A DNA stretch of 52,180 bases, from the NCBI GenBank assembly GCA_016208495.1, contig JACQXX010000041.1, positions 1 to 52,180 on the forward strand. Direction: 5' to 3'. A program made the translations under genes and the position numbers. This document shows, piece by piece, positions 8,138-40,943 of this stretch (positions are counted from its first letter, which is position 1; each line of letters starts with the position of its first letter). The stretch comes from Acidobacteriota bacterium (lineage in GTDB: Bacteria > Acidobacteriota > Blastocatellia > Chloracidobacteriales > Chloracidobacteriaceae). The notes beneath the pieces were generated by a model. It did not search any database. It was not told the origin of the DNA and saw only the letters and a list, made by a program, of their open reading frames with translations.

Positions 8138-8304
8138 ATACCAGTTTGTAGTCAGTAGTCAGTAGTTCACTAAGTACAAGTCTCCATAAATAGGGGATGG
8201 AATCACCGAAATTCCATCCCCTATTTATGGGGACTTGTACTAAGTTTGTTTAAATGAATAACTTGACTGTTTTCTCATACGACCGCTTCATTCCAAAATG
8301 ATAT
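8138..8304. mobile_element. MITE-like element B with an embedded 31-bp hairpin
   Basis: It starts with ATACCAGTTTG and two to three GTAGTCA units, and ends CCAAAATGATAT, matching element A in reverse orientation (internal CTTGACTGTTTTCT conserved). Inside it lies an unrelated near-perfect inverted repeat at 8173-8241. The arms are 31 bp with one mismatch and a 7-nt loop (8204-8210). The rest of the 543-bp gap 7769-8311 holds the terminator at 8093 and the presumed upstream region of the DUF1800 gene, where I saw no convincing promoter. Confidence 0.75.
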
Positions 8305-37888: not shown

Positions 37889-39748
37889 TCACAGGGTCAA
37901 CGTGTCTTGTTCACCAATGCTGATTTCCGGTTTTTTCGGCGCCGAGAGTTCAAAGGTTGATTCCGGCAACTGAGAGGCCAGCTCGGTGAGTGCCTCGGCC
38001 AGTTCACCTGCCGTGGGCCGCTGGTCCGGGTTTTTATCGAGTGTCCGCAAAATCAGGGCTTCGAGTTCCACGGGGATAGTGGGTGTGATTTCACGTGGCG
38101 GACGCGGCATTTCATTGAGATGTTTCATAATCACGCCGTAAACCCCTCCGGCAGTCAACGGGAACGGGACTTTCCCGCAGACGAGTTCATACATCATCAC
38201 TCCGACGCTATACACATCAACCTTCCCATCGTATGGCTGCGGACTCATTCGCTCTGGAGCCATGTAAGTCAATGTTCCAATGAAGCTTCCAGTTGCCGTG
38301 AGCTGATTGATTTTGTCACCGGTATCTTCAGCGGAAAGCTTGGCGATGCCGAAATCAACGACTTTGACGATCTCGCCGTCTTTGGTTCGGTGAAGGAAGA
38401 CATTGGGCGGTTTGATGTCGCGATGGATGATGCCCAGGCGGTGGGCTTCGGCCAGCACCTGACACACCGGTATCATCCATTGAATGCAGGTCTGAAGTGA
38501 CCGCGATGGGGTTTGTTTTAATTCATCCGCCAGCGAATGCCCGTGCAATAACTCCATCACCAGATAGGCGATGCCGTCGGTGGAAATTCCGGAGTCAAGC
38601 ACCGCAACCGCGTTGGGATGGTTAATCCGGGAAGTGGAAACCCCTTCCAGACGAAATCGTTCGACGGCCTCGGCAGAGTCATTTCCCGGAGGCGGACGAA
38701 AAACCTTGACCGCAATCGGACGATTGAGCCTCAAATGCGTTGCCCGAAACACCACGCCAAATCCACCTGCGCCGATTTTTTCATCCAGCCGGTATTTTTC
38801 GTCCAACACGGTCCCGGGGAGTGCTTCAGCCAGGGCTGAAAAAATCCGGTTGGCTTGTTGCTGCGAGGCCACCAGTTCTTGATTGACCCGTTTTACTTCC
38901 TGGATTTGGTGGTCCAGTTTCTCATTTTTCTCAGCCACATCACGATGGGCGGCACTGAGTTCCTCAACCTTTTGGTTGAGTTCCTGGGTCTGGCGCTGAA
39001 TGGTTTTATGGTCGAGGAAATTCTGAACCCGAAGCTCTGTCACTGTCCGGGCAAAGATATAGGCTAAACTGGTGGCAACCAGCCCCATGGTGTTTATTTC
39101 AACGACCGATTGGGCTTTGAGATAAAAGAAATTTGATACAAAAAAATAAAGATAGGTCAGCAGGAACGGAAGAAGGGGAAATTTATCAATCCAGGGAAAG
39201 CCGACAATGAGAAACATTAACCCCATAAAATAGATCAGTGGATTTCCACGCTGCATTAAAAAAATGAGAAATGAAATATGAGCCGCCACAACCGCGAAGG
39301 TAAACACCGCCAGAAGCCCGTTTCTGTGGTGTGGTTGAAAATCATGTGGCGAGTCTGGTTTTTTGAACCAGTCCAGCAGTAAAAACCCTGAAAAGACAAC
39401 AATGGAAAGGATATGGAGGCCGGTAAATGTGGTATGGAGCGGGCCGAGAGGCAATTTGAAGACGTTGAGAAAATCAAAAAAGATCAGGAGCAGAATAAAA
39501 ACAACCAGACAGAATACTGAAAAGATTCGAAACCGATTGAAATAAATAAAAAGCACTTCCTGAAAATATTCATTGCGAAGGTTTTCAGGAATGGTATTGA
39601 GGCTGTTTTTGAATAAATTGATTGGTTCCATGGGATCGAGTGGATCGATAAAGTAACCAACGGAATTCAGGAAACAGGTTACTGGATTGAGAGACTGTTG
39701 AACTGATTGTCGGCAATCTGTGGAGGAAGCCCCAACAAGATAGCGCAT
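37889..39748 (-). CDS. Membrane Ser/Thr protein kinase with N-terminal multi-helix domain
   Basis: A 619-residue kinase of Hanks type. Six membrane helices lie at about 70-235, with a coiled coil at 240-310 (TQELNQKVEELSAAHRDVAE). The kinase domain runs from about 319 (glycine loop IGAGGFGVVF, catalytic Lys in IAVKVF) through HRDIKPPNVFL and DFGIAK to APERM and the C-lobe near 590. All catalytic residues are present. The domain order is the reverse of the usual PknB (kinase first); here the membrane part comes first and could act as a sensor. The start is uncertain: the ATG at 39748 has only a weak site, and M40 (39631) is an alternative. A 221-bp gap without visible features follows. Confidence 0.88.
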   Translation of the reverse strand: MRYLVGASSTDCRQSVQQSLNPVTCFLNSVGYFIDPLDPMEPINLFKNSLNTIPENLRNEYFQEVLFIYFNRFRIFSVFCLVVFILLLIFFDFLNVFKLPLGPLHTTFTGLHILSIVVFSGFLLLDWFKKPDSPHDFQPHHRNGLLAVFTFAVVAAHISFLIFLMQRGNPLIYFMGLMFLIVGFPWIDKFPLLPFLLTYLYFFVSNFFYLKAQSVVEINTMGLVATSLAYIFARTVTELRVQNFLDHKTIQRQTQELNQKVEELSAAHRDVAEKNEKLDHQIQEVKRVNQELVASQQQANRIFSALAEALPGTVLDEKYRLDEKIGAGGFGVVFRATHLRLNRPIAVKVFRPPPGNDSAEAVERFRLEGVSTSRINHPNAVAVLDSGISTDGIAYLVMELLHGHSLADELKQTPSRSLQTCIQWMIPVCQVLAEAHRLGIIHRDIKPPNVFLHRTKDGEIVKVVDFGIAKLSAEDTGDKINQLTATGSFIGTLTYMAPERMSPQPYDGKVDVYSVGVMMYELVCGKVPFPLTAGGVYGVIMKHLNEMPRPPREITPTIPVELEALILRTLDKNPDQRPTAGELAEALTELASQLPESTFELSAPKKPEISIGEQDTLTL

Positions 39749-40000
39749 TTCCCAATTTGGGTAAATATTGGGTGCATTGGCTCACTTGAGCCAGATTCCA
39801 AATGAGAAACACCTTCACGCGTCAAGCGTGCCGGGTGCGAGGCAAGAAAAACGCTCTCGTCGAAAGACGATACGCTGAACCTTTTTGTGAAAATCTATAG
39901 CATTTGGATGATAGTGGTGGAAATTGAGCGACAGAACCGATTGCACCCAGAAAGGCCAGAGGGTATCTTTGGGTGAACGTTCCAATTTGAAGGGTACACT
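39749..40000. other. Intergenic stretch with no recognised feature
   Basis: Between the divergent kinase and the fluoride riboswitch. I see no gene, array or clear promoter. This stretch must contain the crcB promoter. Confidence 0.4.
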
Positions 40001-40063
40001 TTTTTGATGGCGATGGGGTTCGCCGATAACCACTCTGTTTTTCCAGAGTTGATGACTCCTGCT
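40001..40063 (+). promoter_or_regulatory. Fluoride riboswitch (crcB motif)
   Basis: The stem GGCG/CGCC encloses the conserved loop ATGGGGTT. It is followed by the strand AACCACTCTG, a CTCTG/CAGAG hairpin, and TTGATGACTCCTGC, matching the layout of the fluoride aptamer. The loop GGGGT can pair with ACTCC, forming the expected pseudoknot. It lies upstream of crcB on the same strand, as in other bacteria. The normally adjacent expression platform is displaced by a MITE-like element immediately 3'. Confidence 0.88.
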
Positions 40064-40154
40064 ATACCAATTTGCAATGGAATCCTCAGTATTAGAAAAC
40101 AGTCAAGTAATTCAATCAAATAAACTTAGTGAACTACTGACTACAAACTGGTAT
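40064..40154. mobile_element. MITE-like element D between riboswitch and crcB
   Basis: A 91-bp element with inverted ends ATACCAATTTG (40064) and CAAACTGGTAT (ending 40154). The core is AGTATTAGAAAACAGTCAAG and TAATTCAATCAAATAAACTT, then TAGTGAACTACTGACTACAA. It closely matches elements A and B. It starts right after the aptamer's last conserved base and ends 27 nt before the crcB start. Confidence 0.8.
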
Positions 40155-40181
40155 TACTTTCAGCAGTTGAGGAGACGTGTT

Positions 40182-40664
40182 ATGGAAACACTCTGGAAAT
40201 ATCTGGCGATTGCCGTGGGCGGAGCGATTGGGTCAATGGTTCGCTATTACCTTGGTACGACGGCGCTTTCACGCTGGGGGGCACCGTTTCCGACGGCCAC
40301 CTTTGTGATTAACATCACCGGGTCGTTTATTCTGGGCTTTTTTTTGACCTTGATTGCCGACCGATTTCCGGTGCATCCCAACTTCAGGCTGGCGGTGGCG
40401 GTTGGGTTTGTCGGCGCCTACACCACGTTTTCAACCTTTGAATTTGAAACAGCTACACTGGTGGCCGTCCGCGATATCATGCGGGCGGCGGTGTATGTCG
40501 CCCTGAGTGTGGCCGTCGGCTTTGCCGCCGTGTGGTTTGGAATGTACCTGGCAAAACGAGTGGTTGGAGCTTTCCCGGCCCGAATTGCCGCGACGGTTAG
40601 CGAGTTTTCTCACCCCGTGGTGCTGCCGGTCCTGCCTGAGCTTCAAAGTGAGGAAGAATCGTAA
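40182..40664 (+). CDS. crcB: CrcB, fluoride ion channel/exporter
   Basis: A 160-residue Fluc-type fluoride channel of the inner membrane; it works as a dual-topology dimer that removes fluoride from the cell. Four membrane helices are visible. The family motifs are GGAIGSMVRYYLG near the start, FVINITGSFILGFFLT (pore Asn) and GFVGAYTTFSTFEFET (the aromatic/polar pore segment). I chose the ATG at 40182 because GAGGAG lies 7 nt upstream; the 35 codons before it are encoded by the inserted element. Length is a little above the usual 120-130 because of a C-terminal tail. Fluoride-dependent control is expected from the upstream riboswitch. Confidence 0.93.
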   Translation: METLWKYLAIAVGGAIGSMVRYYLGTTALSRWGAPFPTATFVINITGSFILGFFLTLIADRFPVHPNFRLAVAVGFVGAYTTFSTFEFETATLVAVRDIMRAAVYVALSVAVGFAAVWFGMYLAKRVVGAFPARIAATVSEFSHPVVLPVLPELQSEEES

Positions 40665-40698: not shown

Positions 40699-40731
40699 GG
40701 GTTCAGGGTTCAGGGTTCAGGGTTCAGGGTT
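40699..40731. repeat. GGGTTCA array downstream of crcB
   Basis: Four to five GGGTTCA units, mutually inverted to the CCCTGAA array at 40888-40914. Together they bracket element E. Confidence 0.88.
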
Positions 40732-40756
40732 TGAGGACTGGGGAACCAGTAGGTAC

Positions 40757-40858
40757 TACCATTTTGGAATGAAGGTATTGTATTACAGGAAGGCTAAATG
40801 ATTGAAAAAATTGTATTTCCCTCAGCCCTTAGCCCGGTACCCTCAGCCCCAAATGGTA
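40757..40858. mobile_element. MITE-like element E (CCCTCAG version)
   Basis: A 102-bp element with ends TACCATTTTGGAATGAA and CCCCAAATGGTA. The core AATGATTGAAAAAATTGTAT is shared with element F (45166). Three heptamer-like units CCCTCAG, CCCTTAG and CCCTCAG sit near the right end. Confidence 0.8.
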
Positions 40859-40887
40859 TACCGCTCAAACTGGATTATCTTGCTCTA

Positions 40888-40943
40888 AACCCTGAACCCT
40901 GAACCCTGAACCCTGGTGGTATGATATTTCCATCCGACTCCCT
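40888..40943. repeat. CCCTGAA array plus dispersed 33-bp end
   Basis: About four CCCTGAA units (40888-40914), then the exact reverse complement of the sequence at 11341-11373 (40911-40943). The rest of the gap to 41023 shows no further feature. Confidence 0.85.

Follow-up and report, generated by a model that had tools for sequence, protein, structure and literature searches.

A fluoride riboswitch aptamer precedes crcB

The stretch of DNA analysed here, referred to as the window, comprises 52,180 nucleotides and carries a fluoride riboswitch aptamer directly 5′ of the fluoride transporter gene crcB. All features of this locus are located on the + strand. A cmscan search assigned positions 40000–40068 (Rfam extent) to the fluoride riboswitch family RF01734 with a score of 56.8 bits compared to a gathering cut-off of 34. 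The match covers the model from 1 to 64, which is its full length, and RF01734 was the sole Rfam family above the gathering score in the whole window. Inspection of the sequence by eye placed stem P1 at 40009–40012/40021–40024 and stem P3 at 40032–40037/40044–40049. The loop of P1 contains the 5′ strand of the pseudoknot (GGGG, 40015–40018; GGaG in the Rfam consensus). The 3′ strand of the pseudoknot, CUCC (40056–40059), is complementary to the Shine-Dalgarno (SD) sequence GAGGAG of crcB (40169–40174) and can thus also serve as the natural anti-SD strand. The conserved aptamer core stops at this CUCC, at 40059, and the Rfam match extends four bases into the repeat element described below. The locus shares with known fluoride riboswitches the full aptamer with its conserved core and pseudoknot strands and the position directly 5′ of crcB; it differs from them by an 89-bp MITE lying within the expression platform.

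The crcB gene (40182–40664; PF02537, E 5e-29) encodes a protein of 160 aa. A single crcB match was obtained in the genome to which the window belongs (rated 99% complete), so that this is the only crcB found there. The closest crcB found elsewhere (L080, 62%) originates from a Blastocatellia MAG, so that the window probably stems from an acidobacterium, and the tblastn alignment starts at residue 1 of the window's CrcB (Met 40182). Scanning of 20 of 42 crcB loci for aptamers gave no aptamer at the L080 locus. Downstream of crcB, at 40700–40915, GGGTTCA minisatellite arrays form an inverted pair (GGGTTCAGGGTTCA... and ...CCCTGAACCCTGAA) that looks like a further repeat element whose arms consist of minisatellites.

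A MITE copy separates the aptamer from the ribosome binding site

The sequence between the aptamer CUCC and the GAGGAG of crcB is occupied by a copy of a MITE family at 40065–40153, which ends 28 nt before the ATG at 40182. Its 10-bp TIRs (TACCAATTTG / CAAACTGGTA) contain one mismatch, and a short CTGACTA array is present. The copy is 89 bp long, while most other copies have lengths of 88–109 bp. Within the family the number of CTGACTA units varies, the array being situated just before the right end, and the resident array is two units short of the family consensus. BLAST searches with the element yielded at least 48 matches in its own genome (self and partial pieces counted; 40 of 408 candidates scored). 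When a 36-nt core was searched with up to 3 mismatches, 110 genome matches were found (61 forward and 49 reverse, self counted) compared to none with a reversed-pattern control. The copy ends were read by script in 39 extra stretches of the genome carrying further copies. The family TSD is a 3-bp TNA. Both ends could be read in 38 copies, of which 23 had matching left and right TSDs and 15 unequal ones, one of the latter having been shortened by the script; five further copies lacked the right end. In the resident copy the TSD slots read CTA (40062–40064) and TTA (40154–40156) and differ in one position. We had considered this mismatch as a compensatory change, an idea that was dropped; L050 has the same pair, and 15 of the 38 copies read as unequal. 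A TNA target is reminiscent of the IS1031 group of IS5.

In an alignment with 31 other copies, the resident copy had the fifth-highest consensus identity among the 32 and showed, outside the variable CTGACTA array, one inserted base. Since it is so near to the consensus, the insertion looks young. These data agree with a preliminary description of the sequence, according to which a MITE-like element is wedged between a fluoride aptamer and crcB. Its placement of the element next to the aptamer and shortly before the ATG also stands; the ends at 40064 and 40154 and the distance of 27 nt do not.

Among the ten genomes of the family, the full MITE was detected in the window's own genome only, and eight others (G001–G007 and G009) were without any match. 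In the remaining genome, G008, the MITE consensus matched 68 times; the listed matches lie within the CTGACTA array or beside it, and the rest of the element is missing. The array may spread on its own in G008 or mark a related element. Furthermore, a screen of 155 further aptamer loci did not detect the MITE in any of them (best E 2.1). A short MITE with an internal minisatellite reportedly occurs in Porphyromonas gingivalis (PMC4596501). The likeness lies in the short length and the minisatellite; the organism is another one, and the unit here is CTGACTA. At 8138–8304 the window contains a copy of the same MITE family, apparently with a nested second palindrome (CCATAAATAGGGGATGG...).

The native platform was probably translational

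The distance from CUCC to the ATG is 122 nt with the element and would be 30 nt without the element and one TSD. We compared this spacing with related loci. A same-locus empty site in close relatives was not found, the genus being represented by one genome, and none of the other nine family genomes contained an aptamer over the cut-off (sub-threshold hits: L010, 28.9 bits; L011, 25.1 bits). Platforms at the class level and in genus g41 were therefore used for comparison. In the host class, an aptamer match with E ≤ 0.001 was present in 46 of 162 genomes, 41 of them above the cut-off. The fetched loci displayed two kinds of platform, either a terminator-like hairpin followed by a U-tract or a very short leader. 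In 14 class loci with short platforms (L053, L062, L065–L068, L070, L072, L073, L076–L078, L140 and L150) a clear crcB start follows 16–29 nt after CUCC. This range leaves out L061 (33 nt), L079 (32 nt) and L141, which have a U-tract downstream and no clear CrcB start at the called position. In several short platforms, e.g. those of L053, L067 and L078, the aptamer strand has a possible pairing partner in the SD or the start region.

A consensus scan of 39740–40260 detected no terminator on the + strand. In the empty site, AGCAG (40162–40166) can pair with CUGCU (40059–40063), and together with a CUC/GAG pairing this forms a hairpin. It is not more stable than expected from shuffled sequences: 38% of shuffled flanks were as stable, and 34% when the SD was kept fixed. 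As CUCC pairs with almost any purine-rich SD, the argument for the native platform is based on spacing and relatives and not on the hairpin. Taken together, the native platform was probably translational, and on the simplest reading the insertion placed the element between its two pairing strands, anti-SD and SD. The preliminary description had proposed that the whole expression platform was replaced or built from the inverted ends of the element. This does not fit with the SD-side strand surviving 3′ of the element, with a CUCC that can act as anti-SD, or with a spacing of 30 nt without the element, which is close to the 16–29 nt of the short class platforms.

Predicted folding of the crcB leader with and without the element

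Folds were computed for the leader with and without the element, either free or with the aptamer forced, i.e. with P1 and P3 closed and the pseudoknot strands barred from other pairs. P(SD open) denotes the probability of finding the six SD bases all unpaired. Four energy sets combined with four transcript ends gave 16 settings. The nearest-neighbour folding applied leaves out pseudoknot energy, kinetics and ribosomes.

At the empty site, P(SD open) was predicted to rise by a factor of 5 or more upon forced binding in 15 of the 16 settings; the exception was Turner 2004 with the longest transcript (ratio 0.72). In contrast, an at least 5-fold SD release was obtained in none of the 16 settings at the occupied site, where the ratios were 0.02–2.2. 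Constrained folding with Turner 2004 suggested that the SD is trapped by CCUCA inside the element (40084–40088), which pairs with UGAGG (40168–40172). In this predicted fold the 3′ TIR is paired internally, and the SD is captured by the internal CCUC and not by pairing of TIR against TIR. Switching by the inverted ends, as had been envisaged earlier, is thus not what the model predicts. A decoupling of crcB from fluoride, the other outcome considered in the preliminary description, is the predicted and better supported one, with a platform that was probably split rather than replaced.

To place the resident copy among its relatives, 32 real family copies, the resident included, were put into the site in silico (Turner 2004, one transcript end). 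A ratio above 3 was predicted for 21 of the 32, and the resident copy gave the lowest ratio of all. With 200 shuffled elements, 26% gave a ratio above 3. The bound-state SD was closed as much as by the resident copy in 21.5% of the shuffled elements; hence SD trapping is no special property of the resident sequence. Many copies of this MITE family are accordingly predicted to be harmless at this site, and the resident copy is predicted to sever crcB from fluoride.

Proposed mechanism and alternative explanations

On balance we lean towards a reading in which a young MITE split a probably translational fluoride platform in front of the only crcB detected in the genome, and in which crcB is predicted to be decoupled from fluoride. 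In the native state, CUCC at 40056–40059, lying 30 nt upstream of the start codon, would have doubled as anti-SD strand. Without fluoride it would have paired with GAGGAG; with fluoride it would have been held in the pseudoknot, leaving the SD free. Insertion of the MITE would then have separated these two pairing strands without removing either of them. According to the predictions, the internal CCUC(A) of the resident copy captures the SD whether fluoride is bound or not. Such a capture would keep crcB translation low and insensitive to fluoride, and the gene would not be switched by the inverted ends.

A rather unlikely but live rival is a switch that still works, in which the MITE folds TIR on TIR and merely closes a loop, while the base formed by CUGCU/AGCAG and CUC/GAG zips and opens with fluoride as it did natively. 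It is kept alive by the small energy cost of such a fold, since forcing the TIR stem together with the native base gave -20.8 kcal/mol compared to -22.4 kcal/mol for the free fold, i.e. just 1.6 kcal/mol worse. The 21 of 32 family copies that keep a ratio above 3 in silico point in the same direction, as do the inserts at the same place in genus g41, which are predicted to keep a strong response and one of which is conserved (see below). The resident copy itself, however, did not give SD release in any folding setting. A quite improbable explanation is that expression of crcB bypasses the riboswitch by means of a start codon or a promoter inside the element. An ATG at 40077 is indeed in frame with crcB, with 35 codons free of stops through the element (40077–40181) and an open reading frame extending over 40077–40664. 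Yet no SD sequence was seen by eye before 40077, and the tblastn match to L080 begins only at Met 40182. As to a promoter, the number of sigma-70-like sites in 39740–40260 was 0 compared to 0.8 expected from shuffles, in a scan that covers the sigma-70 type only.

Finally, the sequence might be a native platform or leader RNA and not a mobile element, as its position exactly between aptamer and SD could suggest. We regard this as practically negligible because of the TNA TSDs and the 110 core matches throughout the genome; the copy number refutes it. The sequence is also missing from the 155 other aptamer loci and, within the family, was found in full only in its own genome, so that it is not conserved as native platform in distant relatives, the finding that would have spoken against the preliminary description.

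Palindromic repeats in platforms of other fluoride riboswitches

The platforms of further fluoride riboswitches were screened in a set of 155 other aptamer loci and the window's own, which are part of the loci matched in the class and in a phylum sample (at least 133 of 396 genomes matched). Parsing by script covered the window's locus together with 125 of the 155; of the 30 left, 25 were inspected visually, three are sub-threshold hits and two (L176 and L178) stayed unread. Three inserts were tested for repetition. Three other cases in the phylum sample, including a weak one, have palindromic repeats unrelated to the window's MITE in the same part of the platform.

In genus g41, a palindrome is located between CUCC and the SD in genomes G138 (L051) and G140 (L052). 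It has at least 58 and at least 63 matches in the respective genomes (self and both strands counted; 40 candidates scored each). The sister genomes G139, G137 and G136 have short platforms of 26–29 nt, and a few matches to the palindrome occur elsewhere in G137 and G139. G141 (L055) of the same genus harbors a third kind of palindrome at the same platform position. This is the weak case, with 5 genome matches including self and one place counted on both strands. The remaining case was found in G198 (L237), where a palindromic repeat starts right after the aptamer and the crcB start follows 156 nt on. At least 58 genome matches were obtained for this repeat (self included; 40 of 96 candidates scored). 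Nine loci taken as the same genus as G198 (L194, L198, L203, L205, L210, L213, L214, L217 and L222) have 23 nt. The aptamers most similar to that of L237 by eye, L225 and L244, are followed by leaders of 63 and 57 nt without any trace of the repeat, so that the native leader of G198 was maybe of middle length. No obvious switch arms were seen flanking the G198 repeat.

In an alignment with a single gap, the riboswitch repeats of G138 and G140 matched at 73 of 74 bases, and the flanking 10-bp arms (GATGACTCCT/AGGAGTCATC) were unchanged, while third positions of the crcB genes agreed in 89 of 137. Three other shared sites of the g41 repeat served as controls. Here, 63/73, 57/64 and 62/73 bases of the repeat were identical, with 4–10 gaps, and the adjacent flanks matched in 61/73, 65/71 and 48/73 bases, the last aligning well on one side only. 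Pooling the three controls, which are few, gave P = 0.0016 for the difference in substitutions. The pairs L127/L304, L281/L321 and L283/L298, whose adjacent flanks align poorly, were left out of this test; their repeats showed identities of 60/65, 64/71 and 65/68 with 7–9 gaps. By its sequence conservation, the G138/G140 insert looks as if it was kept by selection and is a candidate exaptation. Alternatively, the identity may result from gene conversion among copies or from recombination of the leader.

With the insert, the predicted SD release was at least 10^5 for L051, L052 and L055 in each of the four energy sets. For the insert-free sisters it was 10^3 to 10^7 (L053 and L078) and 74–270 (L077). 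Relative to leaders lacking it, the insert was predicted to lower bound-state SD opening of L051 and L052 with all four sets (L051, Turner 2004: 0.006 with insert and 0.19 insert-free), and to raise that of L055 with three of four. Judged from these models, insertion of such repeats can leave the switch in place, and the repeats may be retained.

We tentatively suggest, as a broader reading that is still somewhat doubtful, that palindromic mobile repeats land recurrently in the stretch separating the anti-SD strand from the SD in fluoride riboswitch platforms. Many of these insertions would leave the switch working because palindromic repeats fold on themselves; at least one (G138/G140) would have been selected as a platform component, and others, such as that in the window, would break the switch. 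If true, mobile DNA enters riboswitch platforms and at times remodels them. Aptamers vary far less than expression platforms do, and mobile repeats that part the sensing strand from the ribosome binding site within one riboswitch class provide candidate natural experiments. The present set holds short-platform sisters for one genus and a predicted broken case, that of the window, beside predicted working ones. Evolution of platforms by mobile DNA is thus directly testable with simple reporters.

The fluoride riboswitch examples studied in PMC11077080 act through an intrinsic terminator, and a strand-exchange mechanism of the fluoride switch is described there. Literature listings, drawn mostly from non-subscription papers, showed no earlier description of a fluoride riboswitch with a mobile repeat in its platform. 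One close precedent is the pneumococcal trp operon, in which a BOX element lies between two upstream T-box riboswitches that appear to the authors to be still functional (PMC3049150). Both systems have a dispersed repeat inside a riboswitch-controlled leader. They differ in that BOX separates two whole T-boxes, thought to be largely independent in folding, whereas the MITE of the window splits a single switch into sensing and output strand. Riboswitches made from MITEs are called conceivable in a review (PMC10969869). In addition to the three inserts taken into the repetition tests, further long spacers were observed among the screened loci, e.g. at L190 and L177.
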